From Pseudoalteromonas sp. DL-6 (lineage in GTDB: Bacteria > Pseudomonadota > Gammaproteobacteria > Enterobacterales > Alteromonadaceae), in the NCBI RefSeq assembly GCF_004328665.1, contig NZ_CP019770.1:1426001-1490000 (forward strand): DNA of 64,000 nucleotides. The letters are read 5' to 3'. Positions 90-30,969 of the stretch are shown here, one piece after another. A program made the position numbers and the translations under genes. The notes beneath the pieces were generated by a model, which saw only the letters and a list, made by a program, of their open reading frames with translations, was not told the DNA's origin and ran no database searches. Position 1 is the stretch's first letter, and the number at the start of each line of letters is the position of its first letter.

Positions 90-1106
90 TTGGAATTTTT
101 ATACGAGTACGGTTTGTTTTTTGCTAAAACCATTACCTTTGTTATTGCTATCGCTGTCATTTTGACCTTAATTGTAAGCTCGGCTGTTAAGCCAAAAGCA
201 AAAAAAGGTGAGATAGAAATAGATGACTTATCAGAGCAACTTACCAATATAAAAGAAAGCTTTTTAAATAATACGCTAGGTAAAAAAGAGTTAAAAGCCT
301 ACCAAAAGCAACAAAAACTAGAGCAAAAAAAAGCTGAAAAAGAAGCCCCTAAATCACGACTCTACGTTATTGATTTTAATGGTAGTATGGATGCGCATGA
401 AGTAGAAAGTTTACGCGAAGAAGTGACTGCGATTATTTCAATCGCGGACCCTAAAAAAGATAAAGTGCTAGTTCGTCTTGAAAGCGGTGGTGGCGTGGTA
501 CATGGTTATGGGTTAGCTGCATCACAACTACAGCGGTTTAAGTCAGCTGGTATTGAGTTAACAGTATCGATAGACAAAGTCGCCGCCAGTGGTGGTTATA
601 TGATGGCTTGTGTCGCAGATCATATTATTGCCGCACCGTTTGCAATTGTTGGCTCTATCGGTGTGATTGCACAAATTCCAAACTTTAATAAAATTTTAAA
701 GAAGAATGACGTAGATTTTGAACAAATTACGGCGGGCGAATTTAAACGTACACTCACACTCTTTGGTGAAAATACAGATAAAGCCCGCGAAAAATTCCGC
801 GAAGAGATAGAGCAAACCCATGTGTTATTTAAAACCTTTGTTAGCACGCAGCGCCCAAGTTTGAATATGGATTTAGTGGCCACAGGTGAGCACTGGTTTG
901 CAACACAAGCTATTGAGAAAGGGTTAGTTGATACCATTAAAACCAGTGATGATGCCTTATTAGAGCAGCAACATCAGCATCAAATATACAAGGTGCAATA
1001 CAAAATTAAAAAAGGGCTAAGTGATAAGTTTGCAATAGGACTTAGCCATAGCGTGAATAAAGCAGGTGTGAGCTTAATGTCAAAATTCAAGGCGTTAAAC
1101 CCTTAA
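90..1106 (+). CDS. sohB: SohB-like inner-membrane serine protease (peptidase S49)
   Basis: Membrane-anchored S49 peptidase of the signal-peptide-peptidase class, expected to have its catalytic domain in the periplasm. One N-terminal membrane segment (about residues 10-30) is followed by a charged linker rich in Lys and Gln, then the protease domain. The nucleophile is the Ser of AASGGYM (near residue 167) and the partner Lys lies in TAGEFKRT (near 219), a Ser-Lys dyad. I chose the TTG at 90: GGAG sits 7 bases upstream, and the product then begins like other SohB proteins (LEFLYEYGLFFAK). The reading frame is open back to 27, but that extension is hydrophobic and lacks a ribosome site. At 338 residues the length is typical. 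Identity is quite certain, the start fairly so. Confidence 0.93.
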   Translation: MEFLYEYGLFFAKTITFVIAIAVILTLIVSSAVKPKAKKGEIEIDDLSEQLTNIKESFLNNTLGKKELKAYQKQQKLEQKKAEKEAPKSRLYVIDFNGSMDAHEVESLREEVTAIISIADPKKDKVLVRLESGGGVVHGYGLAASQLQRFKSAGIELTVSIDKVAASGGYMMACVADHIIAAPFAIVGSIGVIAQIPNFNKILKKNDVDFEQITAGEFKRTLTLFGENTDKAREKFREEIEQTHVLFKTFVSTQRPSLNMDLVATGEHWFATQAIEKGLVDTIKTSDDALLEQQHQHQIYKVQYKIKKGLSDKFAIGLSHSVNKAGVSLMSKFKALNP

Positions 1107-1130
1107 TACTTTGATAGCTTATAGACAATA

Positions 1131-1171
1131 AAAAAGCCTTGTTACTTAAAAAGTAGCAAGGCTTTTTTTAT
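1131..1171. terminator. bidirectional intrinsic terminator between sohB and the symporter gene
   Basis: A-rich and T-rich tracts flank an inverted repeat (AGCCTTG.TACTT / AAGTA.CAAGGCT) lying between two convergent genes, so it can end transcripts from both sides. Confidence 0.85.
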
Positions 1172-1189
1172 AACTAACGATAGAAGCTG

Positions 1190-2521
1190 TTAGTCAATTG
1201 ACTTGTGATAGTCTTCTAAATCTTTAGCTGCATTTGGGTCGTTAAAGATATTTTCATCTAGTTCACCCTCACTTTTAGCGACAACACAAGTTACCATACA
1301 GTCACCGGTTACATTTACTGCGGTGCGGGTCATATCAAGTAGTCTATCAACACCTATTATAATTGCTATGCCTTCAACAGGTAGGCCTACTTGGTTTAAT
1401 ACCATAGCCAGCATTATCAAGCCAACGCCAGGAACACCTGCTGTGCCAACCGAGGCAAGCGTTGCTGTTAATATCACCATTAAGTAATCAGAAATAGTTA
1501 AATCAACACTAAATACTTGAGCAATAAATACCGTAGCGACACCTTGCATAATTGCAGTGCCATCCATATTAATGGTTGCGCCTAATGGAATAGTAAATGA
1601 GGCCACTGAGTTATTAGCACCGAGCTTCTTAGTCGCAGTTTCAAGTGTGATAGGCATAGTTGCGCTTGAACTTGAGGTGCTAAAAGCAAATAAACAGGTG
1701 TGCTTCATTTTAGCTAAGAAAGTGAGCGGGTTTAGTCCTGTAAGTATTTTTAGCAGTAGGGTGTAGTTTACGAATGCATGCAATAACAGGGCTAAAACAA
1801 CGACGCCAAAGTACTTAGCTAAGCTTACAATTAAGTTAAGCTCGATAGTAGTAAATAACTTAGCCATTAAGAAGAATACGCCGTAAGGGGCAATATTCAT
1901 TAACAAAGTAACTAGTTTTAAGATAACAGTATTTAAGTCTTCAAATACTGTTGCTACACGTTTACCTGCTTTACCGCTAAGTGCCATTGCGATACCAAAT
2001 AATAAAGCAAACACAATAACTTGTAGCATGTTTCCTTTTGCCATTGCTTCAAATGGGTTGGTAGGGAACATATCAATGATAACACGAGCTAAAGTAGGCG
2101 CTTCTTTTGCGTCGTAGCTTGCTTGAGAGGGTAAACCAATACCTTCACCTGGGTTAAATAGTAGCGCTAGTGTAATTGCCACTGTAATAGCAATTGCTGT
2201 GGTCACCAGATATAAACCAATCGACTTTCCACCTAAACGGCCCAATTTTTTAGGATCGCTTAAACTACAAGTACCACACACAAGGGATACAAATACCAAG
2301 GGAACAACTAGCATTTTTAAACTAGCTATAAATATTTGCCCACCTACATGAAATAGGCCATCAACAAAAAAAGCTTTAATTGGCAAAGAGAATAACCCAA
2401 GAGGGATTAGGTAATCGTCTTCACCAGCTAATATAGCCTGAAATATAAAGCCTACTGCAACACCAAGCACCATACCAATCATGATGCGAGTAGTTAAACT
2501 CATTGAACGGATTTTAGACAT
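1190..2521 (-). CDS. dicarboxylate/amino acid:cation symporter (DAACS family, GltP-like)
   Basis: Secondary transporter that would take up glutamate, aspartate or C4-dicarboxylates with Na+ or H+ across the inner membrane. It is 443 residues long with about eight hydrophobic segments. Family hallmarks are visible: the serine-rich re-entrant loop FSTSSSSATMP, the NMDGTA motif and the C-terminal DRLLDMTRTAVNVTGD motif that binds substrate and cation. It stands alone, convergent with sohB. The intergenic stretch before its start codon is very AT-rich and also serves the divergent lipoprotein gene. The exact substrate cannot be read from sequence; GltP, GltT and DctA subgroups look alike at this level. 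Confidence 0.93.
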   Translation of the reverse strand: MSKIRSMSLTTRIMIGMVLGVAVGFIFQAILAGEDDYLIPLGLFSLPIKAFFVDGLFHVGGQIFIASLKMLVVPLVFVSLVCGTCSLSDPKKLGRLGGKSIGLYLVTTAIAITVAITLALLFNPGEGIGLPSQASYDAKEAPTLARVIIDMFPTNPFEAMAKGNMLQVIVFALLFGIAMALSGKAGKRVATVFEDLNTVILKLVTLLMNIAPYGVFFLMAKLFTTIELNLIVSLAKYFGVVVLALLLHAFVNYTLLLKILTGLNPLTFLAKMKHTCLFAFSTSSSSATMPITLETATKKLGANNSVASFTIPLGATINMDGTAIMQGVATVFIAQVFSVDLTISDYLMVILTATLASVGTAGVPGVGLIMLAMVLNQVGLPVEGIAIIIGVDRLLDMTRTAVNVTGDCMVTCVVAKSEGELDENIFNDPNAAKDLEDYHKSID

Positions 2522-2706
2522 ATTTCCAATCTATTTTTTATAAATTTGGCATAGACTAACAGCATGTAATTTTTTTTACAGAAAAAACGTCAACTTTTTA
2601 AAAATTTTTATCGCAAAAAAGAGTAAAAATCTGAGATTTTAGACTAAGTTATAGGTTAACATTAAGTAAATAAGTTTAACTTAGTAACTGTCCAATGGAG
2701 AAACCT

Positions 2707-5418
2707 ATGCCTTTAAACCGTTTGCTCAGCATTATATTGCTCAGCTCATTACTCATCGCTTGTGGCGGTGGGGGCTCACTTGAGAAAGAAAGTGGAACCG
2801 TTGGCGGTGATACTGGAGGCACCGGTGGTGACGTTGTCGAACAAGCTATTCAAGTTGAGCTTAACTTCGAAGATCGTATTGTTACAGCTGACAATCCGTT
2901 AGAGGTAGTTGCAACGGTAACTGGCAGTGATGGAGAGCCAGTTGTTCGTCAAGAGGTAAGTTTTACCACAACACTTGGCTCTTTCATACCAGCTACAGCA
3001 AGCGCATTAACAGATTCGAGTGGTATAGCAACGATTGAACTTAGCGCCGGCAGCGTTGAAGGAGCAGGAACTATCGTTGCCAGTTATGAAGATGCCACAA
3101 GTAAGCTTGGCTTCTACACTGCGGGTGATGAGCCACAATCTAACGACTCTGTTGCAAATATTGATATCAAGATTTTACAAAACTGTCCTGATAGCTGGTT
3201 AAATATTGACAGAGATTCTATTGAACTTAATCCATCAGACTGTTCTCAAAATAGTAATTTGCTTGGGCAACAAGCCATTGTGTACGCAAAAATCACAAAA
3301 CCTGGAAGCAATACGCCAGCAAGTAATGTATTGGTTCAAGCGACAACCACGCTAGGTATTTTATTACCTGAAAGCTTAACGGCGAAAACAGATGCGTTTG
3401 GTGTTGCTATTTTAAACTTATTGCCTGGCAGCAGTTCAGGTGTAGGTCAAGTTGAGTTAACAGCTGAAGGCGGTGTAGGAAGTGCTTTATTTGAAATTAA
3501 TGCTGTTCAGGTAAATGTCAATTTAAGTGCCGGTATTGCAGCTACTGATGTATTGTCAGCAGGCTCTACCACTATTATTACAGCTGAAATTCTAGACGGT
3601 AGTAATAACCTATTTACCACACCGCTGGAAGTGCAATTTACTTCTGCTTGTGCAGAGGAGTCTACTCCTAAAGCCACTATCGATAATGTAGTAACTAGTA
3701 TTGGTGGGACGGCAAACGCAACCTATAAAGCTGATGGCTGTAATGGTATAGATACGATAACAGCGACTGTGGTGACTGGTGGCAATGTAGCAACAAAAAC
3801 TATAAACATAAATGTTGCTGCGGCTCAAACTGGCTCAATTGCCTTTATGGGCGTGACCAATCAAGTATTAGCTATTAAAGGAGCGGGTGGTCAGACCTTG
3901 ACTGAAAACTCAGAGCTTACCTTTAAGCTCTTAGATGTGAATGGAAATCCAGTGGGTCAAAAGCAAATTGATTTTTCACTTTCACAAAACCCAGGTGGCG
4001 TGTTGCTAGATAGTGCATTTCAGTTTACTAATAACGAAGGATTAGTGACTGTAAATGTCCGTTCGGGAAGAGCTGCTGGTGTTTTATCTGTTATTGCTTC
4101 TCACCAAATTGATAGTGGAGATACTTCACAGAATAGTGTGATCTCTATTGTGTCTAATGACATTACTATTACTACAGGTGTACCTGATCAAGACAGTTTT
4201 ACGCTTGCAGTGCAAACGTTTAATACCGAGTCATTAAATGAAGCCGGAGTGACTACAGATTTAACTGTATTTGCAGCTGATCATTTTAATAATTTTGTTC
4301 CTGATAACACGGCAGTTTATATTGCCAGTGAAGGTGGTGCAGTTGGCACTATTGATGGTCAACAATTTACACCTTTATTACTTTGTCGCACCACAGACGG
4401 TGTGTGTAACGCTCAGTGGCGCAGCCAAAACCCTGTCCCATACCATTACAGCATTTATAATAATTCTGTTGCTGATAAGTGTGACCGCTATTTTGGTCAA
4501 GCTGCTCCTTGTTCTTTAGGTATTAGAGAGTCAGAACTGGACGCAAATGGCAATTTAATTAATTATTTAGATAGCAATGGCGATCCAATAACATTAACTG
4601 ATGCGCCTAATAACGCGCCAATTGATTATCCACTTGGTGGGCGTGTTAGTTTGCTTGCTTATTCTGTGGGTGAAGAGTCGTTTAATGATGTATCTGCCAA
4701 CGGTGAATTTAATCAGAACGAGTTTGACTCAACTTTACAAGATTTGCCTGAAGCCTTTATAGATTTTAACGAAAATGGTGTGTTTGATGGGAATTTACCA
4801 GCACCAACAAACCCTGTGGATTCTAATGGTGGTGAGGATGAATGGTACGTGGAACGCTCAGGGCCATTAAATAATGGTCAGTATGACAGTGGTGATGGAA
4901 TTTATAACGGCTTGTTGTGTAGCGATGAAGCTTTAGCTGCAAATGCGTGTACACGTGAAACTGTTAATGTGCGTGCTCGCTCAGAGTTAGTTATGTCAGG
5001 TAGTACACCTTATATTAGAGCTGTGACGGCTTTAAATGACTGTAGTTTAAGTGATGGTATTCGCTTAGAAGCTTCTGATATGGCAGGTATGTGCGACATA
5101 AACCTTATTGATATTAGCAACTCAACACCTTACAGCGCGATTTCAGTAACCATTTTCTTTAGTGATATTCACAACAACCCAATGCCGGCAGGTACTACTG
5201 TTACTGTAACGGCCGATAATGGTGTATTAAGAGGGTTAACAGATTACACCGTGGTTAATACTGCACAAAAAACGCCAATCTCAGTTTCCGTTAACATTAC
5301 TAAAGAGTCAGAGCCAAATGAGGTTGATTCTGGGTTCTTATACATTGAATTTGAAACGCCCGGTGGTGTGAAAACTCAATATACCGTAATGTCGATTTTA
5401 GACGAACCTAAGGTTTAG
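2707..5418 (+). CDS. large lipoprotein with bacterial Ig-like (Big_1/invasin type) domains
   Basis: Predicted outer-membrane or surface lipoprotein of 903 residues. The signal peptide ends in a lipobox (LLIAC) followed by a Gly-rich tether. The body has repeated Ig-like modules with the Big_1 pattern (TVTGSDGEPVVRQEVSFTTTLG, then TDSSGIATIEL), at least four units from about residue 45 to 500. The C-terminal half has acidic Asp/Asn/Gly runs such as DFNENGVFDG and YDSGDGIYNG that resemble calcium-binding loops, plus several Cys pairs. I start at ATG 2707, seven bases after GGAG at 2696; an ATG four codons earlier overlaps that site. Such proteins usually serve adhesion or surface scaffolding, but no partner gene is adjacent and the function is unknown. 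Confidence 0.85.
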   Translation: MPLNRLLSIILLSSLLIACGGGGSLEKESGTVGGDTGGTGGDVVEQAIQVELNFEDRIVTADNPLEVVATVTGSDGEPVVRQEVSFTTTLGSFIPATASALTDSSGIATIELSAGSVEGAGTIVASYEDATSKLGFYTAGDEPQSNDSVANIDIKILQNCPDSWLNIDRDSIELNPSDCSQNSNLLGQQAIVYAKITKPGSNTPASNVLVQATTTLGILLPESLTAKTDAFGVAILNLLPGSSSGVGQVELTAEGGVGSALFEINAVQVNVNLSAGIAATDVLSAGSTTIITAEILDGSNNLFTTPLEVQFTSACAEESTPKATIDNVVTSIGGTANATYKADGCNGIDTITATVVTGGNVATKTININVAAAQTGSIAFMGVTNQVLAIKGAGGQTLTENSELTFKLLDVNGNPVGQKQIDFSLSQNPGGVLLDSAFQFTNNEGLVTVNVRSGRAAGVLSVIASHQIDSGDTSQNSVISIVSNDITITTGVPDQDSFTLAVQTFNTESLNEAGVTTDLTVFAADHFNNFVPDNTAVYIASEGGAVGTIDGQQFTPLLLCRTTDGVCNAQWRSQNPVPYHYSIYNNSVADKCDRYFGQAAPCSLGIRESELDANGNLINYLDSNGDPITLTDAPNNAPIDYPLGGRVSLLAYSVGEESFNDVSANGEFNQNEFDSTLQDLPEAFIDFNENGVFDGNLPAPTNPVDSNGGEDEWYVERSGPLNNGQYDSGDGIYNGLLCSDEALAANACTRETVNVRARSELVMSGSTPYIRAVTALNDCSLSDGIRLEASDMAGMCDINLIDISNSTPYSAISVTIFFSDIHNNPMPAGTTVTVTADNGVLRGLTDYTVVNTAQKTPISVSVNITKESEPNEVDSGFLYIEFETPGGVKTQYTVMSILDEPKV

Positions 5419-5466: not shown

Positions 5467-5671
5467 TTCTATTCTATATATTCCACATCAATTATTCAAA
5501 AAACGCTGGTTTGTTTAAATTAACAACAGAAATTGTTTGTTTATTCAGTAAATACTGAAAAGTTTGTATTAAAAGCTTGTAAGAACTAGTGTTTGTAGAT
5601 ATACCTATAAATATTCGCGCCGCATGAGTCGGCTAAACACATTTAAAAAACTAGGTTAGAAATAGGCAACT

Positions 5672-8380
5672 ATGGGCAAATCGCTAGTAATTGTAGAGTC
5701 ACCTGCTAAGGCTAAAACAATTAATAAATACTTAGGTAATGATTTTATCGTTAAGTCCAGTATTGGACACGTACGAGATTTACCTACATCAGGATCGGGC
5801 AAAAACAAAGTACCAGCAAGCAAAACACCTGCTGAGGTTCGTAAAATGCCACCTGATGAGAAAGCAGCGTATAAACAGCAACGTGACTATTCTAACTTAG
5901 TCGCGCGCATGGGCATCGATCCTGAAAAAGGGTGGGAACCACATTACGAAGTATTGCCGGGTAAAGAAAAGGTTGTTCAAGAATTACAAAAGCTTGCCCA
6001 AAATGCTGATCAAATCTATCTCGCAACGGATTTGGATAGAGAAGGGGAAGCAATTGCTTGGCACCTTCAAGAGCTGATAGGCGGTGAGCCTGAAAAGTAT
6101 AAGCGCGTTGTGTTTAACGAAATCACTAAAAATGCAATTCAACAAGCGTTTGAAACTCCGGGTGAATTGAACACCGATATGGTTTATGCACAGCAGACTC
6201 GTCGTTTCCTAGACCGTGTTGTAGGTTTTATGGTTTCGCCTTTATTGTGGGCTAAAGTTGCACGAGGTTTATCGGCAGGACGAGTTCAATCTGTTGCAGT
6301 GCGGTTATTAGTAGAGCGCGAACGTGAAATTAAAGCGTTTATTCCTGAAGAGTTCTGGGATATTCATGCAGATGTTAAAAATAGCGAGTCTGACTTACGT
6401 TTAGAAGTCACTAAACAAGCAGACAAGCCATTTAAGCCTGTAAATGAAGCACAAGCTACAGCAGCAGTTAAAAGCCTTGAGAATGCCGAATATAAAGTTG
6501 TAAGCGTTGAAGAAAAACCAAGTAAGAGTCGCCCAAGTGCGCCATTTATTACTTCAACCATGCAACAAGCAGCCAGCACTCGACTCGGTTATGGCGTTAA
6601 AAAGACCATGATGCTTGCGCAGCGTCTATATGAAGGCGGTTATATTACCTATATGCGAACCGACTCAACTAATCTATCAAAAGATGCGGTTGAGATGTGT
6701 CGTGAGTATGTAACCAATGAGTTTGGTGCAAAATATTTACCAGCAGATCCAATTAACTACAGTTCAAAAGGCAATGCACAAGAAGCGCATGAAGCAATTC
6801 GTCCTTCTAGCGTATCGGTACTTTCAGGACATGTTGAAGGTGTTGATGCCGATGCGAAAAAGCTTTATGAGCTTATTTGGCGTCAGTTCGTGGCTTGTCA
6901 AATGGTGCCTGCTGAATACGACTTAACCACATTAACCGTTGCCGCCAATGATTTCACATTAAAGGCAAAAGGCCGTGTGCTTCGCTTCGATGGTTGGACT
7001 AAAGTACAGCCAGCAGTGCGTAAAAAGAACGAAGAAGATCAATCGCTTCCTGCTGTTAAGCAAGGTGAAGTTCTCACCTTAGTTGAGCTTGATCCTAAGC
7101 AGCATTTTACCAAGCCGCCAGCACGTTTTAGTGAAGCGAGCTTAGTTAAAGAACTTGAAAAACGTGGTATTGGCCGTCCTTCAACTTACGCGTCTATCAT
7201 TTCGACTATTCAAGATCGTGGCTATGTTCGAGTAGAAAATCGTCGCTTTTTCGCTGAAAAAATGGGTGAAATTGTTACCGATCGCCTAGTTGAAAACTTT
7301 ACTGATTTAATGAACTTCGATTTTACCGCTAAAATGGAAGGTCGTTTAGATGATATCGCCGAAGGCGAGCGTGTTTGGACGCAAGTTCTCGATAAATTTT
7401 ATGCTGATTTCTCAACCCAGTTAAACATTGCTAAAGGCGAACCAGATGAAGGCGGCATGCGTCTTAATCAAATGGTAGAAACCGATATTGACTGTCCAAC
7501 CTGTGGCAGAAAAATGGGCATTCGTACTGCTTCAACAGGCGTATTCTTAGGCTGTACAGGTTATAACCTGCCACCTAAAGAGCGCTGTACTACCACTATG
7601 AATTTAGTGTCGGGTGATGAAGCGGTTGCAGCTGATGTTGAAGACGTTGAAACAGAAACATTAATGCAAATGAAGCGCTGTCCAATTTGTGAAACAGCGA
7701 TGGATTCATACCTTATCGACGAAACCCGTAAACTGCATGTGTGTGGTAATAACCCAGCATGTCAGGGGCATGTTGTTGAAGAGGGTACCTTTAAAATTAA
7801 AGGCTACGACGGCCCTATTATCGAGTGTGATAAATGTGGCGCTGATATGGAGTTAAAATCAGGTCGATTTGGTAAGTATTTTGGTTGTAACAACGATGAA
7901 TGTAAAAACACACGCAAGTTGTTAAAAAATGGCGAAGCTGCGCCACCAAAAGAAGATCCAGTTCATATTCCTGAATTAGAATGTGAAAAGTCTGAAGCCT
8001 ACTTTGTATTACGTGATGGCGCGGCCGGTATTTTCTTAGCAGCAAATACGTTCCCTAAATCACGAGAAACACGCGCTCCTAAAGTAGAAGAGTTACAACG
8101 CTTTAGAGATCGTATTTCGCCTAAGTTTTACTACCTAGCTGATGCACCAGCCAAAGATCCTGATGGCAACCTTGCTGTTGTGCGTTACAGTCGTAAAAAC
8201 AAATCTCAATATGTGATGACTGAGGTTGACGGTAAAGCAACAGGTTGGACGGCTCATTACGAGGGTGGTAAATGGGTAGAAGAGGCGAAGAAAAAAGCTG
8301 CGCCTAAAAAGAAAGCCGCCGCGAAAAAAGCCCCCGCTAAAAGTAAAGCAAAACCAAAAGCTAAAAAAGACGGCGAATAA
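5672..8380 (+). CDS. topA: DNA topoisomerase I (type IA)
   Basis: Relaxes negatively supercoiled DNA by single-strand passage. The Toprim domain is at the N terminus (VESPAKAKT with Glu9; the DLDREGEA motif around residues 120-126). The catalytic Tyr is Tyr327 in [10 protein letters not shown]. Conserved RVQSVAVRL and [11 protein letters not shown] motifs follow. C-terminal zinc ribbons are seen as CPTCGRK..., CPICE... and CDKCGAD..., and the last 35 residues are a Lys/Ala/Pro tail ([15 protein letters not shown]). Length 902 is a little above the E. coli enzyme. It stands alone with its own terminator, and the 250 bp upstream hold no gene. Certain identification. Confidence 0.98.
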
Positions 8381-24208: not shown

Positions 24209-25174
24209 TTATAATATTTTACTTAGTGGGCTAATTACCCCGTTCGCGCCTTGTTGTAAAACATGCGTATATATTTGCGTAGTGCGAACATCGCTATGGC
24301 CGAGTTGTTCTTGCACAGTGCGTATATCTGCACCAGATTCAAGTAAGTGGGTAGCGAACGAGTGCCGTAGTGTATGGCAGGTAACATTTTTTTGAATTTT
24401 TGCCAGCTTTGCTGCCTGTTTAATTGCTTTACGAACCGTTGTTTCATCAATATGGTGGCGACGCAGCTTTTTACTTTCTGGGTCCATGCTTAACTGGGCA
24501 GAAGGAAACAAATATTGCCAGCTCATTTCATAAGGAGCCGCTGGGTATTTTCTAGCTAATGCATTCGCAAGCCAGACACCTGCACAGTCTGTTGCTTGTT
24601 TGTCTCGATGCCAGTAGTCATTTACCAAGTGACTTTGGCTGCGCAACAACGGCAGTAGTTCGAGTGCTAATGTTACTCTGCGGTTTTTATTGCCTTTGCC
24701 CTGCCAAATCATTAATGAGACATAGTCATAATCGACATCTTTTACCCGTAGCCTTACAGCTTCCATTAAACGTAGACCACTACCGTAAAGTATCTGAGCG
24801 ATAAGTTTATACTTTGGAGCCATTGCCAATAATAAACGCTGTATTTCTTCACGGGTCAGTACTATAGGTAATTTAGGTGACACGAGTGATTTATTAAAAT
24901 TCATTTCAAGTGATAACGGTCGACTAATAATATGACGGTATAAAAATACCAAAGCATTTAAAGCCGTTGCCTGAGTTTTCATTGCAACATTACGCTGATT
25001 GCTTAAATAAGATAAGAATTGCTCAACCTCCGACTCTGCCAATTGCGCCGGATGTTTTTTACCATGGTATAAAATGTAAAATTTTATCCAATATTGATAA
25101 GTGTCTATAGTACGCTTTGCATAACGACGCGTTATCATAAAGTCACGGATTGATTCTAAAAATATAGAAGCCAT
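24209..25174 (-). CDS. intI: integron integrase (tyrosine recombinase IntI)
   Basis: Site-specific recombinase that inserts and excises gene cassettes at attI and attC sites. The N-terminal SAM-like DNA-binding domain covers about residues 1-90. The catalytic domain holds Arg in GSGLRLMEAVRLRVKD, HTLRHSFATHLLESG with the His/Arg pair, LGH and the nucleophile Tyr in TTQIYTHV. An insert around AAPYEMSWQYLFPSAQLSMDPESKKLRRHHIDETTV is the extra helix region that separates IntI from XerC/D and is needed for attC recognition. I start at ATG 25174 (321 residues); an upstream start at 25204 would overlap the LexA box. The gene faces away from the cassettes, as in all integrons. It looks intact. Confidence 0.95.
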   Translation of the reverse strand: MASIFLESIRDFMITRRYAKRTIDTYQYWIKFYILYHGKKHPAQLAESEVEQFLSYLSNQRNVAMKTQATALNALVFLYRHIISRPLSLEMNFNKSLVSPKLPIVLTREEIQRLLLAMAPKYKLIAQILYGSGLRLMEAVRLRVKDVDYDYVSLMIWQGKGNKNRRVTLALELLPLLRSQSHLVNDYWHRDKQATDCAGVWLANALARKYPAAPYEMSWQYLFPSAQLSMDPESKKLRRHHIDETTVRKAIKQAAKLAKIQKNVTCHTLRHSFATHLLESGADIRTVQEQLGHSDVRTTQIYTHVLQQGANGVISPLSKIL

Positions 25175-25190
25175 AATCTGCTCTAGCTGG

Positions 25191-25210
25191 TACTGTATAT
25201 ACAAACAGTA
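25191..25210. promoter_or_regulatory. LexA box of the integrase gene
   Basis: TACTGTATATACAAACAGTA contains CTGT-N8-ACAG (25193-25208), a full match to the gammaproteobacterial SOS box, beginning 17 bp upstream of the integrase ATG. SOS control of intI is known for mobile and Vibrio integrons. Here it is predicted from the site alone. Confidence 0.88.
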
Positions 25211-25337
25211 GTTGTATTTAGTTTTTTTTCAACAACTCGCGGGATTATTTCTTGTATTTTACAACAACAAAAAAACAACAAATATAAATCCCTTGATTTA
25301 CATTTAGATACAGAGTTAAACTTAAAGTATTAAAAAA

Positions 25338-25398
25338 TCAAAGGATTTTATGTCTACAACTTGCGGGTTTAGATCCTTTGAATAAGCTGTTATAAGCC
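25338..25398 (+). other. attI region and cassette insertion point
   Basis: Recombination core GTTATAAGCC at 25389-25398. These ten bases are the exact reverse complement of GGCTTATAAC (28635-28644), the R'' core of the first attC, as expected when TTATAAGCC is the 5' end of cassette 1 joined to attI after G25389. To the left lies a perfect 9-bp inverted repeat TCAAAGGAT / ATCCTTTGA (25338-25346 and 25373-25381) that could be an integrase-binding element. The left limit of attI is not visible. Confidence 0.75.
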
Positions 25399-25512
25399 CA
25401 AGAAGGTTTTCCGACAATACAGTATCTAGATGAGAAAACACTACTTCAACAAAGTGTATTTATAAAAGTGTTTGGTTGAATTGTTACATTAGAAATTTTA
25501 AAGGGAAAAGAA

Positions 25513-25674
25513 ATGGATAACTTAATGGTAATTGGCTTAATAGCTGTCGCTATTCTAGCAGTGTTAGGGCTTGGTATAAAGGTAGTAATGCACTTTAAAG
25601 GTGGTAGTAAAACCAGCTTCAAAAATATTGAAGCGGGTGGGGATGTTGTTGGTAGAGACAAGGTTCAAAAGTAG
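25513..25674 (+). CDS. 53-residue single-span membrane peptide with GGDVVGRDKV tag
   Basis: Short gene: one transmembrane segment at residues 5-27 (MVIGLIAVAILAVLGLGIKVVM), a basic turn, then the tag EAGGDVVGRDKV at 40-51 and the end. AAGGG lies 7-11 bases before the ATG. The stop codon is followed at once by the next ATG (TAGATG), so the two genes are translationally linked. The same tag occurs near the N terminus of the next protein. I infer a membrane effector or anchor tethered to the CTD protein through the shared tag. ABC-3C systems normally fuse effectors to the CTD; here the effector may be split off. No known family is recognised for the whole peptide. Confidence 0.8.
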   Translation: MDNLMVIGLIAVAILAVLGLGIKVVMHFKGGSKTSFKNIEAGGDVVGRDKVQK

Positions 25675-25734
25675 ATGTTAAGTTGGATCAGAAATATCAC
25701 TGCGGGCGGGGATGTCGTTGGGAGAGACAAGGTT
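25633..25734 (+). repeat. direct DNA repeat encoding the GGDVVGRDKV tag in two adjacent genes
   Basis: 33 bases at 25633-25665 and 33 bases at 25702-25734 match except for four third-position differences, and both encode AGGDVVGRDKV. One copy ends the membrane peptide, the other starts the CTD protein. All differences are synonymous, which suggests an old duplication kept by selection on the peptide. Confidence 0.85.
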
Positions 25735-26214
25735 ACAAATATTTTACCGAGCCCTACTCAAATGGATTTATTATCTCAGAAGTATGTTGAGGAAAAATCC
25801 AACCATCAAATGACTAATGTGGTTATTGATGAACTAACGCACTACAGTAATGAAAACTACGATATTAGGGATTTGAACGAGAAACTAGAAGATGCCGGTT
25901 TTGGTTATTTAATTGAGATCGGAGAAGAGCTAAAGGAAGAAGTAAGCAAGCTAATTATTCGTAATCAGCATTATAAATCTGCTCAGAAAATAATTACCTA
26001 CTTACTAGCAGAAGTAGAGTCAACCTTTAACGCCAACATAAAAGGAAAGTTACTTACAACTAAAGAAGAGTCTGCTCTTAAACTGCTATTTAGAACTCAC
26101 TTAGAAAAAGAAATTCAAACCCACCTAGGTGAAAATGTTCTTGAAATATTTAATCGTCAAATAAATGGAATGGTTTATTTCTTAACAGGCAATTGCCATC
26201 TGGAGTGGAAATAA
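25675..26214 (+). CDS. ABC-3C system C-terminal-domain-like protein
   Basis: 179 residues. The N terminus carries the tag TAGGDVVGRDKV (residues 9-20). The rest is mostly helical and acidic (about 45-150) and ends in NGMVYFLTGNCHLEWK. That closing pattern, a hydrophobic strand followed by TGNC and an aromatic, is what I associate with CTD modules of ABC-three-component systems, where it links the effector to the other two parts. Usually a toxic domain is fused in front; here only the short tag is present. The stop codon TAA shares its last base with the next ATG. Assignment rests on memory of the family and on the gene order. Confidence 0.65.
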   Translation: MLSWIRNITAGGDVVGRDKVTNILPSPTQMDLLSQKYVEEKSNHQMTNVVIDELTHYSNENYDIRDLNEKLEDAGFGYLIEIGEELKEEVSKLIIRNQHYKSAQKIITYLLAEVESTFNANIKGKLLTTKEESALKLLFRTHLEKEIQTHLGENVLEIFNRQINGMVYFLTGNCHLEWK

Positions 26215-26717
26215 TGCTCCTATATAATAAAGCTTTAGATGCAAATCACACACTGCTTCGCATGACAGCATTATTAGCCGCTTGGAAAGCAGTAACAGTA
26301 GAGGGTGAAGCCCTAAGATTATTTGACTTTTTAATAGCAAATCCGGCTCATATACATAAGTTGTCAGTGCCAAGAGGTAAGTTTGCTGCAAAGAATGATT
26401 TTAAAAGTTATAAAAACCGATATCAGAGCTTTGAGCCAAAGAGCCTCTTCAATGCAATGAAAGAAACGCATTGTGTGGTTATTGAACGGTTTGTGGATCT
26501 AGGTATTCTACAACCGCATAACAATCACTCGGAATATAAGGTACAGCTTGAAAATATCCCTGAGGAATTAAAAAAATTAGCTGAATCAAGCGAGAATAGT
26601 ATATCAAGCCAGGCTATCCACTTTATTATAGAAAACTTAATTTCTATCCCTATTACTGGCTCTGATGGGTTAAAAAAAATAACAAATTTAATGGAATATA
26701 AGTACGATGTTAATTAA
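26214..26717 (+). CDS. ABC-3C system middle-component-like protein
   Basis: 167 residues, helical, with the opening LLYNKALDANHTLLRMTALLAAWK and a likely winged-helix core (DFLIANPAHIH...LFNAMKETHCVVIERFVDLGIL). Size, opening and place between a CTD protein and an ABC ATPase fit the middle component of ABC-3C systems, thought to bridge sensor ATPase and effector. The start ATG overlaps the preceding stop (TAATG) with TGGAG 9 bases upstream; a TTG at 26193 is possible but unneeded. The 3' end overlaps the ATPase gene by 11 bases. The molecular role is inferred. Confidence 0.65.
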   Translation: MLLYNKALDANHTLLRMTALLAAWKAVTVEGEALRLFDFLIANPAHIHKLSVPRGKFAAKNDFKSYKNRYQSFEPKSLFNAMKETHCVVIERFVDLGILQPHNNHSEYKVQLENIPEELKKLAESSENSISSQAIHFIIENLISIPITGSDGLKKITNLMEYKYDVN

Positions 26718-28605
26718 CCCTACTTTGAATATAAAGAGGCTTTATGTAAAAAAAGGCTCTCAAGTTGCTTTTGACGAAACTTTTCATCAAGGGGTCAATG
26801 TTTTATTTGGAAAGAATGGTTCAGGAAAAACTTCTGTAATTCAATTGTTAATGTACGGGCTAGGATATGAAGTTCCTAACTGGAAAGATGAAGCTGGATT
26901 ATGTGACAATATTTATGTGGAATTAATAGTTAATGGCAACCCAGTTACGATTAGACGAAAAAACAATGGTTCAGATAAACAATCGATGGACTTTTGTTTT
27001 TCGGAACTGGATGTTGCATTAGCCTCACCTCTCACAAGCTGGTTTAATCATCCTTATGCAATAGGTAGTAAACCTAGTTTTTCCCAACAAATGTTTGATT
27101 TACTTGGTTTGCCTGAAGCAAAGGCAGATGCAAATAGTAATAACGTAACCCTACATCAAATATACCGCCTTATTTACGCGGATCAATCAAACGCCTCTAG
27201 CGCTTTGTTTAATAATGAGCCTTTTGATTCTGCATTTAAACGTGAGTCAATAGGTAAATACTTATTAGGCCTATACGATAACGAACTTTACGATGCAAAG
27301 ATTAAACTCGTTGAAGAAGAAAAAAATTTACAAAAAGTTATATCAAAACTTCAAGCAATTCATTCAGTCATTGGTAAGACTTCTTTTAGCGAAGGCCTCG
27401 AAACCATTGAAGAGCAGAAGACTGGTATTTTAAACAAAATAGCCTTAATAAATGTGGAAATTGTAAAGGCTAAAGAAGAGTCTTTGGTTTCATATAGTGC
27501 CGAAAAAAAGGAAACTGAATCTTCGGCTAAAAGTAGTGTTGCAATTCGAAGTAAGTTATTGGAGGTTGAAACTGATATTCAACAGCTGAATTACAACATA
27601 CTTGATTCTGAAGACTTTGTGTCTGAGCTTTTAGATAAACAGTGCGCATTAAGAGATTCGATAAAGGTTGGCGGAGTAATTGACGGATTTGAGTTTTCTT
27701 CATGTCCAAGTTGCCATAAGCCCCTCAAGAAAAAAAGCAAGGATTGCTGTGGTCTATGTGGTGAGCCGAGAGAATCAAAAGATAATTCAAATAGTCTTCT
27801 CAGAATGAAGAATGAAATCGAAATCCAACTTCGTGAATCAGAGAAACTATTGGAAAAGAAAAAACAAAAACTAACGGAACTTACAGCTAAACGAAAGGAA
27901 TTAAGAACATCTTTCAGAAGGCAGGTTAGTAAAGTAACAGCGACTATGAGTTCGGTTGACGCAAACAAAGAAAAGCAGATATATGAGCTTTACCGACAAA
28001 CAGGAGAGTTAGAAGAAAAGCTTCAGACATTAGATAAAATTGCGGAACTACATAGGTCTTTACTTGAATTACGAGGCGACAGGGACTCTGCTCAAACTGA
28101 AGTTAATAACCTCAAAGATAAAATTGATTTAATTGGTAAACAAAGACTTAAGCGCGAGCCTGAAATTAATGAACTAATATCGAATAAGCTTTGTGAATTG
28201 CTTAGAAAAGACAATGGCGCAGAAAAAGAGTTTAAAAATGCAAGTTATGCAGAGTTTGACTTCGCAGCCAACAGCGTCTCAGTAAATGGTAAAACAGCAT
28301 TTTCTGAAAGTGGAACAGTGTTATTAAATAATGCTTTTCATGTTGCCCTTTTAATGGCTGCACTTGATAAAAAGTACGTGCGACTACCCAGATTATTAGT
28401 TCTTGATGGAATTGAAAATGGTGGGATGGAAGATGACCGTTCGAAGAATTTTCAGAAGGTTGTAGTTGAAGCACTGGCCAATTATGAGATAGATTTTCAA
28501 TTGATTTTCGCGACAAAAAATATAGATGAAAGTTTAAAGTCAGAAACCTATATGGTTGGTGAGGAATATAGTGAGTCAAACAAAAGCCTAAAATCTTTTA
28601 GTTAA
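26707..28605 (+). CDS. ABC-3C system ABC ATPase (Rad50/SMC-like, with zinc-binding Cys cluster)
   Basis: 632 residues laid out like Rad50: Walker A GKNGSGKT (35-42), a coiled coil from about 195 to 310, a four-Cys zinc-type cluster CPSC...CCGLC (333-351), a second coil to about 480, then the second ATPase half with a degenerate signature (SESG in place of LSGG) and Walker B LLVLDG around 562-568. The final DFQLIFATKN strand is typical of the fold. In ABC-3C systems this protein is the predicted sensor that licenses the effector. The weak signature and the short coils set it apart from true Rad50 or RecN, and no nuclease partner lies nearby. Confidence 0.78.
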   Translation: MLINPTLNIKRLYVKKGSQVAFDETFHQGVNVLFGKNGSGKTSVIQLLMYGLGYEVPNWKDEAGLCDNIYVELIVNGNPVTIRRKNNGSDKQSMDFCFSELDVALASPLTSWFNHPYAIGSKPSFSQQMFDLLGLPEAKADANSNNVTLHQIYRLIYADQSNASSALFNNEPFDSAFKRESIGKYLLGLYDNELYDAKIKLVEEEKNLQKVISKLQAIHSVIGKTSFSEGLETIEEQKTGILNKIALINVEIVKAKEESLVSYSAEKKETESSAKSSVAIRSKLLEVETDIQQLNYNILDSEDFVSELLDKQCALRDSIKVGGVIDGFEFSSCPSCHKPLKKKSKDCCGLCGEPRESKDNSNSLLRMKNEIEIQLRESEKLLEKKKQKLTELTAKRKELRTSFRRQVSKVTATMSSVDANKEKQIYELYRQTGELEEKLQTLDKIAELHRSLLELRGDRDSAQTEVNNLKDKIDLIGKQRLKREPEINELISNKLCELLRKDNGAEKEFKNASYAEFDFAANSVSVNGKTAFSESGTVLLNNAFHVALLMAALDKKYVRLPRLLVLDGIENGGMEDDRSKNFQKVVVEALANYEIDFQLIFATKNIDESLKSETYMVGEEYSESNKSLKSFS

Positions 28606-28637
28606 ATTTAACAAATATGACCTTGGCGAAAAAAGGC

Positions 28638-28737
28638 TTATAACAAAGCCTTAAAGTCGGATTCGTAACAGTTGGCTCGGTCCGCTTCGCTTCACATTTT
28701 AGCCAACTGTTACTCGCCGCTTAAGGCGGCGTTATGC
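28638..28737 (+). repeat. attC site of cassette 1
   Basis: Bounded by R'' TTATAAC and R' GTTATGC. The centre holds a perfect 13-bp stem GTAACAGTTGGCT / AGCCAACTGTTAC (28665-28677 and 28701-28713), and the outer arms AAAGCCTTAA / TTAAGGCGGC pair imperfectly, giving the usual folded attC hairpin. The R' bases GTTATGCT belong to the next cassette and match that cassette's own R'' AGCATAAC. Confidence 0.88.
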
Positions 28738-30066
28738 TCACCAAAACCAAAAAGATATATTTAAAGCATGAGTGACGAAGATAAAATTAACAAAGATGTT
28801 GATTATTACATCAAGACAAAGGACGGCAAAACCCTCCTTGTCGAGCCTAAGACGCGCCCTCAATCCGAGTATACGAAAAGAATCTGGAGGAACCTCAGCG
28901 AGGATAAATCTGCAGATGATTTTAGCGATATCTTTGCATCTGTCTTTGATGATGTATTCAAAAGCATAAAGGATAAAACTGCTGATTTTGTTGAAAAAAC
29001 TCTTGAGGATTGGGATGCAGAAAGACGTAAAAGTATTCGAGAGTTAAAGGGCCATTATGAAAACGAGACTCTAACATTGATATTAGGTGCTGGCGTATCA
29101 ATGGATTTTGGTTTGCCTTCGTGGGATGAACTATTAAAAAGGCTCTTGGCAAAAACTCTCGAAGAGGATGACTCAGAAAGCCAATTAATGGCTGGAATGT
29201 TTAATTCTGTTTTTGGCCCAAGCAGCCTTATTGCAGCAAGGTACCTAAAATTACATTTTGAACAAGAAAAGCAAAAAGGGACTAGAAAATACCCTTTTGA
29301 AACTGAAGTAAGAAAAGCCCTTTATGAAAATATTACCGATGTCGACAGCCCAATTTATAAAGCTGTTGTCCAACTTTGCGTATCTCCAGGAAAGAACCCA
29401 AGTCTAGACTCAGTAATAACCTACAACTACGATGATATCCTTGAGCAAAAGTTAAAGGAGCTTGATTTAGGTATCAAATTCAAGAGTATCTACACTCTTG
29501 GTATGAATCCAAGAAAGGATGAACTACCTATTTATCATGTACACGGGTTTCTTCCTAGAACTGGTAATGTAACAGATAAGCATGCTGTCATATTGTCAGA
29601 TGATAGCTACCATAAGCAATATATGGATTTATACCACTGGAGCAATCTAGTTCAAATTAACAAATTTAAAGATTCAAACTGCTTATTTATTGGCCACTCT
29701 TTTTCTGACCCTAATTTAAGACGACTGTTAGATATCGCTAAATCTCAAAGAGGTCACGATAAAACTCAGCATTATTTAATTAAACGCAAATACAAAGTAG
29801 AGAAGGTTACTGAAATCCTGACAGAGCTTCTTGCAAAAGATGGATTCTTTGACAAAGAAGGTGCGGATGAAAAACTTGAGACGATAGCTAAAGGACTTGT
29901 TAGAACTGTGCATACATTCGAAAACAATGACGCAAAGTCGTTTGGTGTAGATATTATCTGGGTTGACGAGTTTTCTGATATTGCTAACATCGTAAATGAA
30001 ATATCAAAATAGCATAACAAACGCGTTAGTTAGGACTCTCGCAAGCTCTTGCCTATAACGCGGGCG
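28732..30066 (+). mobile_element. integron gene cassette 2: SIR2-like gene
   Basis: 1335-bp cassette from TTATGCT at 28732 to the attC core G30066. One gene fills it, with 36 bp upstream and the attC immediately after the stop codon, the compact form typical of cassettes. Its first bases are the reverse complement of its own R'' (AGCATAAC, 30011-30018), which fixes both ends. Confidence 0.85.
28768..30012 (+). CDS. SIR2-like domain protein, predicted NAD-degrading defence effector
   Basis: 414 residues. A charged 100-residue N-terminal part (unknown fold) precedes a SIR2_2-type domain: nucleotide loop [16 protein letters not shown] (105-119), VITYNYDD (216-223) with the conserved Asn, YHVHGF (256-261) with the catalytic His, and [17 protein letters not shown] (305-321). 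The Asn and His needed for NAD hydrolysis are present. Proteins of this type act in phage defence by emptying the cell of NAD (established for Thoeris ThsA, DSR and others). No partner gene shares the cassette, so it may be self-sufficient. A role in defence is inference from family and setting. Confidence 0.85.
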
Positions 30067-30072
30067 TTATGT
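30012..30072 (+). repeat. attC site of cassette 2
   Basis: 61-bp site with R'' GCATAAC (30012-30018), R' GTTATGT (30066-30072) and inner pairing of CGCGTTA with TAACGCG. The SIR2 stop codon touches the left end. The R' bases GTTATGTGC belong to cassette 3 and match its R'' GCACATAAC. Confidence 0.88.
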
Positions 30073-30969
30073 GCTAAAAGTTTCGGTATCGGAATAAATT
30101 ATATGTCAAAAATAAATCGAAGCATAAGTACGAAAGATACATCTATTTTGATTGCAAATGCGGGTGGTCGATGTAGTTATAATTTTAATAATGATATCTG
30201 TAACAAAGTTCTAGCAGATGGACGAGTCAACTTAGGAGAGAGAGCACATATCATAGGTGTGAATGGTCCAAGATCTGAATTTAAAACAAATGATTTAGAG
30301 TTGAATGGTTATGAAAATTTAATTTGGCTTTGTAAAGACCATCACGCAATTATTGACCATCCTACCAATCTAAACGTTTTTACAGTATTTGAGCTTCACA
30401 ATATGAAGTCTCGTCATGAACAAAGAGTAAGAACTGGTAGGCTTCCTTATTTTGGCACTGAAACATCAGTTCAGGACTATGCTTCTTTATGTACCTTGTT
30501 TTTATTTCTTGATATCCATGCTTTGTATGGAAATGTAGCTTCATTCCCTCGAATTCATATTAATTTTTATGATGTGGAAGATATGTATGAAGCCTACTGT
30601 ATGGATAATCCTCCTAGTTTGAGTTTGTTTGAACCTCTACTGAGGGATAGATTCGATCGTTTTATAAATTGTTATTTTGATCTTGCCAACCATCTCAGAG
30701 GCTTGCCTAATATTAAAGAGGATCAGTTTAGCGGCTGGATGGAAAAACAATTTGATCAAGTATCCTATCAAAAAGTCGTCATATACTTGGAATCTGTTGA
30801 ATCTCTTATTTCTATAATAGATCAGCGATTCCCGCAAATCTTACAACAAGACGTATACAATGCATTTGACTAAATGCACATAACAAGGCAATGCAATCTG
30901 ACTCTGAATCTGTCACGTTTTTTGCTGCGCAAAAAGACGTGACAGATTGCTACGCAGTTGATTGCGGCG
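30067..30969 (+). mobile_element. integron gene cassette 3: HNH-type gene
   Basis: 903-bp cassette from TTATGTGC at 30067 to the attC core G30969. It holds one gene. Both ends are fixed by the 9-base match between its start and its own R''. It is the last cassette: the R' after it (GTTAAAGTGT) has no matching R'' further right, so it should be the original attI flank. Confidence 0.85.
30103..30873 (+). CDS. HNH-type endonuclease-like protein
   Basis: 256 residues. The N-terminal 90 residues have an HNH-like zinc fold: GGRCSYN with Cys24, Cys33, ERAHI with His49, then ENLIWLCKDHHAIID with Asn72, Cys77 and His80/81. The spacing matches the HNH family that cuts DNA or RNA. The remaining 165 residues are helical with no motif I know and may sense a trigger or bind a partner. 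I start at ATG 30103; a frame open from 30049 would run through the attC. Standing alone in a cassette between SIR2 and the chromosome, it could be a defence nuclease. That role is inference. Confidence 0.75.
   Translation: MSKINRSISTKDTSILIANAGGRCSYNFNNDICNKVLADGRVNLGERAHIIGVNGPRSEFKTNDLELNGYENLIWLCKDHHAIIDHPTNLNVFTVFELHNMKSRHEQRVRTGRLPYFGTETSVQDYASLCTLFLFLDIHALYGNVASFPRIHINFYDVEDMYEAYCMDNPPSLSLFEPLLRDRFDRFINCYFDLANHLRGLPNIKEDQFSGWMEKQFDQVSYQKVVIYLESVESLISIIDQRFPQILQQDVYNAFD

Follow-up and report, generated by a model that had tools for sequence, protein, structure and literature searches.

A Lamassu-type (ABC-3C) four-gene operon in a single integron cassette, with a motif-paired membrane peptide as its proposed effector

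The window analysed here is a stretch of 64,000 nt from Pseudoalteromonas sp. DL-6 (contig NZ_CP019770.1, positions 1,426,001-1,490,000, forward strand; coordinates below are window positions unless a locus is named), and it carries an operon of four genes within one integron cassette. This operon probably encodes an immune system of the Lamassu type, that is, of the ABC-three-component (ABC-3C) kind, in which an adaptor motif would take the place of the effector enzyme and recruit a separate membrane peptide, the clustered peptides then damaging the membrane. Its open reading frames (ORFs) are:

25513-25674, + strand: ORF1, single-pass membrane peptide of 53 aa, the proposed effector (hydropathy 2.88)
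25675-26214, + strand: ORF2, CTD9 protein of 179 aa, with the N-terminal motif RNITAGGDVVGRDKV followed by the CTD9 domain (residues 66-178)
26214-26717, + strand: ORF3, MC5 middle component (LmuC-like) of 167 aa with an ATG start (Pfam MC5)
26707-28605, + strand: ORF4, Rad50/LmuB-like ABC ATPase of 632 aa with a Cys4 cluster (AAA_23, PADLOC LmuB)

The initial annotation had read the three larger proteins as the CTD, middle component and ATPase of an ABC-3C system, and profile searches bear this out. The proteins starting at 25675 and 26214, rather than falling into unrelated families, matched the Pfam families CTD9 of ABC-3C (PF20285; 2.2e-32, 112.4 bits against a cut-off of 27.9) and MC5 (PF20291; 5.1e-46, 157 bits against a cut-off of 25), respectively. 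The description of ORF4 as a Rad50-like ATPase with a Cys cluster was likewise upheld by matches to AAA_23 (1.5e-9, above cut-off) and PADLOC LmuB (2e-42), and by the invariance of C333, C336, C348, C351 and the Walker A Lys in 14 aligned homologues. The PADLOC LmuC profile was matched at 6.5e-5, and PADLOC profiles matched only two of the four operon proteins. As to the four genes being overlapping, ORF2 and ORF3 do overlap by 1 nt and ORF3 and ORF4 by 11 nt, whereas ORF1 and ORF2 abut.

Residues 1-65 of ORF2 matched no family above cut-off in profile scans, and ORF2 yielded neither a PADLOC hit nor an LmuA match at E up to 0.1. ORF1 matched no Pfam family above cut-off and no PADLOC family. 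Besides the ATPase, no enzymatic domain reached its cut-off in the four window proteins. In predicted models, CTD9 resembles the C-terminal end of LmuA, and MC5 resembles LmuC. For the CTD9 model, Foldseek alone gave no match at E <=0.001; LmuA stood seventh there, its TM-score by query (0.32) being the highest of all, and reached the top only when the matches were re-examined with VIA. For the MC5 model, the rule of the tool counts the third Lamassu row (7.7) and the row after it (7.0) as a tie. Among PDB sequences, the ATPase had no match up to E 0.01 and CTD9 only rows of E 0.3-0.7. Judged by profiles and predicted folds, the system belongs with ABC-3C/Lamassu, and it is from this family membership that its earlier label of conflict system would derive.

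The order of the genes is kept across the 53 CTD9 loci compared (52 from genome contigs plus the window): by tblastn, MC5 follows CTD9 in 50 (not found in L024, L041 and L043) and the ATPase follows in 52 (not found in L043). With the CTD9/MC5 class of ABC-3C, the operon shares the CTD9 and MC5 domains, a Rad50-like ATPase with a Cys cluster and a fixed order, but it differs in having a fourth gene for a membrane peptide and no recognised effector domain fused to the CTD. Lamassu, in turn, consists of LmuA-LmuC-LmuB, with DdmABC as type II; the LmuB and LmuC components are present here, whereas the catalytic N-terminus of LmuA is absent and a motif plus a separate membrane peptide stand instead.

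After setting aside three loci in which the CTD9 frame was broken or cut by the contig end (L043, L044 and L052), 50 loci across phyla could be analysed. A hydrophobic ORF, picked by hydropathy alone and ending between 53 nt inside and 50 nt before the chosen CTD9 start, lay directly upstream of CTD9 in 48 of them (including L025, whose CTD9 frame is interrupted), the exceptions being L021 and L023. In all 48 peptides, the hydrophobic stretch is followed by a flank that is more positive than the one preceding it. By the positive-inside rule the positive flank lies on the cytosolic side, and the motif-bearing tail (KNIEAGGDVVGRDKVQK in the window peptide) is therefore predicted to be cytosolic.

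A model of the peptide matched 344 proteins at E <=0.001. None of the 120 listed carried a Pfam domain, and the named proteins among these 120 were hypothetical or uncharacterised, save for one label resembling a mis-annotation. Matches occurred in 3/398 Pseudomonadota genomes, every one beside CTD9, and in 5/395 genomes of one Bacteroidota class. Four neighbourhoods of the latter were inspected: two were CTD9 loci, one (L101) was an MC6 locus, and one (L103) lay near an ExbB-like protein, probably by chance. The peptide is thus mainly, though not exclusively, a partner of CTD9. The initial annotation was right to count it as an operon member, yet it is more than one further gene, being conserved as a partner and having a motif in common with the CTD9 protein. 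As a separate observation, the same kind of peptide precedes another ABC-3C class at L101/L105 (210-2907 of L105, - strand), in a system with a CTD10 match below cut-off, MC6 at 5.4e-19 and an ATPase that appears SMC-like by eye; there, the motif match between the peptide tail and the neighbouring protein was not above chance.

The motif NIxAGGDVVGRDK is found both in the tail of the peptide and at the N-terminal end of its CTD9 partner, the window peptide ending in SFKNIEAGGDVVGRDKVQK and the CTD9 protein beginning with MLSWIRNITAGGDVVGRDKVTN. The underlying DNA is as follows:

25619-25670, + strand: DNA for the peptide-tail motif (direct repeat D4, 81% identical to 25688-25739)
25688-25739, + strand: DNA for the CTD9-head motif (direct repeat D4; a form of the motif is found in 36 of 37 aligned homologues)

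The remaining homologue (P0120) starts after the motif. The letters of tail and head co-vary by locus, as in GPYAGRD/GPYAGRD (Pseudomonas, L011), GDIAGGD/GDIAGGD (L036), SGGDMTINK/SVGSMHINK (L041) and GGHIAGGN/GGHIAGGN (L054).

This pairing was quantified by scoring every tail against every head, with 50,000 permutations. Across 47 loci, own pairs scored a mean of 61.2 compared to 36.2 for other pairs, a difference reached by 0/50,000 permutations. The own head ranked first in only 18 of these loci (and among the top three in 33), because relatives share motifs. When restricted to 13 loci with CTD9 domains less than 50% identical, the means were 62.2 and 32.7 (0/50,000), the own head came first in 12/13, and in each locus 0/1000 shuffles of the tail residues scored as high. 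Below 40% identity (7 loci), 16/50,000 permutations reached the observed value, which is near the floor for seven items, and the own head came first in all seven.

A fresh, previously unused set comprised L001 and L092-L097, found by CTD9 alone, and L077, found by the peptide model; L098, which fell below the CTD9 cut-off and gave no hit with our own CTD9 model, was left out. In these eight loci, 2/50,000 permutations reached the observed pairing, and the own head was the best within the set in six. When compared with all 56 heads, the own head took rank 1 for L092, L093, L094 and L097, 2 for L096 and L001, 4 for L095 and 5 for L077. Of 2000 shuffled tails, one reached the observed score for L095 and three each did so for L097 and L077, as opposed to none for the other five loci. 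The pairing of tail and head is therefore specific to the partner. Residues 1-20 of the CTD9 protein are predicted with a pLDDT (predicted local distance difference test) below 50, and a head that is conserved yet apparently unfolded alone would, as expected, fit a motif that folds on assembly, while being no proof by itself. In L094 (1094-1288), the core of the peptide tail looks RHIM-like, with no Pfam hit, and the head of the CTD9 protein there is similar to this tail.

A codon control was used to separate likeness kept at the protein level from copying of DNA. Across 48 loci, identical residues of tail and head shared their codon in 246/562 cases, compared to 235.9 expected from the codon usage of each locus (L013, whose expectation could not be computed, was entered as 0, which places the true expectation slightly above this figure); within the set of 13 loci, 72/160 were shared against 67.3 expected. 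Since codon sharing is no higher than codon usage predicts, the motif likeness is kept at the protein level, and across the family it is maintained by selection on the proteins. On the strength of the same control, gene duplication or gene conversion was rejected as a general explanation for the motif likeness. A recent DNA copy may nevertheless have occurred at individual pairs, namely in the window (9/13 shared codons against 5.2 expected) and in L010 (11/12 against 6.1).

In L021 and L023 (~5515-6465), the two loci without a hydrophobic upstream ORF, the CTD9 protein is 316 aa long from its first ATG and lacks the motif when searched by regular expression. The N-terminal part of the L021 protein matches HNH-type effector profiles (PDC-M68A at 8.2e-32, and CBASS effector profiles); L023 is similar by sequence, and Pfam HNH_2 stayed below cut-off in both. 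An HNH-type fusion without motif or peptide therefore suggests that motif and peptide occupy the usual position of the effector domain, although these are two related genomes and may reflect one event. L097 represents another apparent swap, judging from its sequence: here a 120-aa protein (2061-2423, - strand) stands in place of the usual peptide, and the tail of this protein matches its CTD9 partner (3/2000 shuffles as good). This protein gave nothing above cut-off with Pfam at E up to 5 and nothing with PADLOC, and its start presumably resembles Bell/HeLo-type membrane effectors, a likeness seen by eye only.

The operon as a whole lies within an integron, delimited by the following features:

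24209-25204, - strand: integron integrase gene (TIGR02249 integrase_gron, E 8.7e-137, above cut-off)
25389-25398, + strand: attI/cassette junction G^TTATAAGCC, the exact inverse of the R'' ending at 28644
25390-28731, + strand: gene cassette of 3342 bp with the four-gene operon (attI junction, R''/R', attC; the L003 relative has attC on both sides)
28635-28737, + strand: attC site belonging to this cassette, comprising R'' (28635-28644) and R' (from 28731), with a fold z of -6.34

It had been claimed that all four genes and a terminal attC form a single cassette whose ends are set by a ten-base match, and both points stand. The cassette is the first after attI, divergent from the integrase gene and with one attC; its junction GTTATAAGCC (25389-25398) and GGCTTATAAC (ending at 28644) are exact reverse complements and the sole such match in the window. 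For the bottom strand of the attC stretch 28632-28738, the fold z of -6.34 was equalled by 0/200 shuffles, and the predicted fold contains the long central stem, with R'' and R' each pairing locally and not together. An attI junction, a matching R'' and a folding attC, by which integron cassettes are recognised, are thus all present. A further attC between 25513 and 28605 would have spoken against a single unit; a crude R''/R' scan of this region returned nine pairs, none with a convincing attC form by eye.

Cassette DNA was matched somewhere in 93/295 genomes of the order. Among the matches listed, nearly all span only cassette positions ~3234-3342 (the attC end, last ~90 nt) at 71-95% identity, and, besides the own genome, only one (G486) matches the genes at length (75% DNA identity, 109-3209). 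Five relatives from genome contigs with at least 83% CTD9 identity were compared by eye for attC sites. The Shewanella relative (L003) sits between two attC sites (fold z -4.32 for one and -2.05 for the other, a value that 6/200 shuffles also reached), two others (L004 and L007) retain partial attC remains, and in the last two (L005 and L006) none was seen. Close relatives of the system therefore occur inside as well as outside integrons.

Judged by R''/R' words, two more cassettes lie downstream. The second (28732-30065), with its own attC (R'' at 30012-30018, fold z -3.23; next junction at 30066), encodes a SIR2-domain protein at 28768-30012 (SIR2_2 9.7e-20; PADLOC ThsA 1e-21 and LmuA 1e-18). 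The third (30067-30969), with an attC-like end (R'' at 30876-30884, next junction at 30969), encodes an HNH-type protein at 30106-30873 (PADLOC SAVED-HNH 3.4e-22 and PDC-M68A 1.2e-17; Pfam HNH_2 below cut-off). Each of the three cassettes thus seems to carry defence genes. No Rfam family reached its gathering score in the window, and a regulatory RNA reading was dropped; a sigma-70 promoter scan of 25200-28800 found eight sites against a shuffle mean of 10.9, and no promoter is claimed.

CTD9 is sporadic, being found in 2/369 genomes (own included) in one survey and in 8/395 (centre included, one below cut-off) in another. Its loci occur in integrons, on plasmids and on viral contigs, with defence-like neighbours. 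The gene layout seen here recurs at four loci on viral contigs and at the plasmid locus inspected (one of six records). The plasmid peptide carries the annotation hypothetical protein, and none of 2000 shuffles equalled the match between its tail and its partner. Phage records gave no CTD9 match, and in E. coli only a 216-nt match to the ATPase was found (~68%, in 11/5426 genomes). According to record titles, the hosts include Shewanella, Pseudomonas and Flavobacterium, and many hosts such as these are not known as filamentous.

From the gene content, families, motif pairing and its upkeep, predicted topology and the HNH-type fusion of one lineage, we infer docking, stacking, membrane damage, a DNA trigger and phage defence in the following sequence. 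The ATPase and MC5 would form the sensor, presumably binding foreign or aberrant DNA, on which the CTD9 protein would dock via its C-terminal domain, as LmuA does, with a short and probably unstructured N-terminal motif where the enzyme would be. Activation of the sensor would free or cluster the CTD9 proteins, a release step proposed by analogy with solved Lamassu complexes (e.g., 9hqu, titled 'LmuACB in nuclease sequestration state'). Their heads would then stack, most likely in an amyloid- or beta-arch-like manner, recruiting the matching peptide tails, and the clustered peptides would damage the inner membrane so that the infection is stopped. Being a cassette, the system could be transferred in its entirety to the first position of an integron.

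In its design, the system resembles the amyloid-based signalling that operates in cell death of fungi and animals. In bacterial and fungal amyloid signalling, the end motif of a membrane-directed protein matches the start of a receptor encoded by a neighbouring gene (PMC7889193, PMC8086366, PMC12261475). There is a likeness to bacterial amyloid signalling sequences (BASS), where adjacent genes share a motif that is C-terminal on the membrane-directed and N-terminal on the receptor-side protein (PMC7889193). However, BASS links Bell-domain effectors to NOD-like receptors (NLRs), whereas here the receptor side is the CTD9/MC5/Rad50-type ATPase complex with no NLR, the effector is a single-pass peptide, the amyloid nature is suggested by analogy, and many hosts are not known as filamentous. 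A broader claim, for which we would give slightly less than even chances, is that an SMC/Rad50-type DNA sensor is coupled to membrane damage via amyloid-type templating between CTD9 and peptide, independently of NLRs, in several phyla including ordinary unicellular bacteria, and in an integron-mobile form.

Several observations would also fit readings other than the proposed membrane-damaging effector. The motif pairing, the topology and the single-pass form would suit a tether equally well: the peptide could be a membrane anchor whose motif holds CTD9, MC5 and the ATPase at the inner membrane where DNA enters, with the ATPase complex acting on the DNA. We consider this unlikely, since the window proteins contain, besides the ATPase, no enzymatic domain at cut-off, and since the peptide is replaced in L097 by a 120-aa protein with a matching tail. 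The HNH-type CTD9 fusion, in addition, lacks both peptide and motif, as expected if these were stand-ins for an effector; a tether would still be useful there. The pairing statistics are also blind to the direction of control, so that the motifs might instead be bound at rest, the peptide being an inhibitor or a stored form that activation would release, in a toxin-antitoxin-like manner. This appears improbable, given that the title of 9hqu suggests, by analogy, that the holding is done by the LmuB/LmuC part, and that MC5 and ATPase are conserved here.

The Rad50-like character of the ATPase, together with the lack of any phage test of the family in the literature found, could further point to a housekeeping or DNA-repair module with no immune role; the sporadic distribution, the integron, plasmid and viral-contig settings and the defence-like neighbours make this very improbable. 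Finally, the window copies (81% identical DNA, 9/13 shared codons against 5.2) would fit a shared motif that is a functionless relic of duplication over a short stretch, its copies homogenised by gene conversion, but this is hardly tenable in view of the codon sharing across 48 loci (246/562 against 235.9) and of amino acids that co-vary by partner.

The titles and abstract starts covered contained no membrane peptide or amyloid-like motif in ABC-3C/Lamassu, the papers on ABC-3C classification, BASS and Lamassu structures lying outside that coverage. ABC-3C and integrons were found together only in PMC12409362, the two being named in separate passages. Like other integron defence cassettes, the present one holds a defence-type system in an attC-bounded unit, while differing in its four genes and 3.3 kb; a four-gene system in one cassette extends the reported integron cargo and would be an exception to it (PMC12409362). 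A 2021 review of amyloid signalling lists NLR-independent signalling amyloids in fungi and bacteria as an open question (PMC7889193), and the loci described here offer natural motif pairs by the dozen, some of them from named isolates, with which such signalling could be tested directly. The findings also suggest that effectors encoded as short, unannotated peptides escape defence finders, as PADLOC sees two of the four proteins here, and that a motif of 15-25 residues may redirect a Lamassu-type sensor to a membrane effector.

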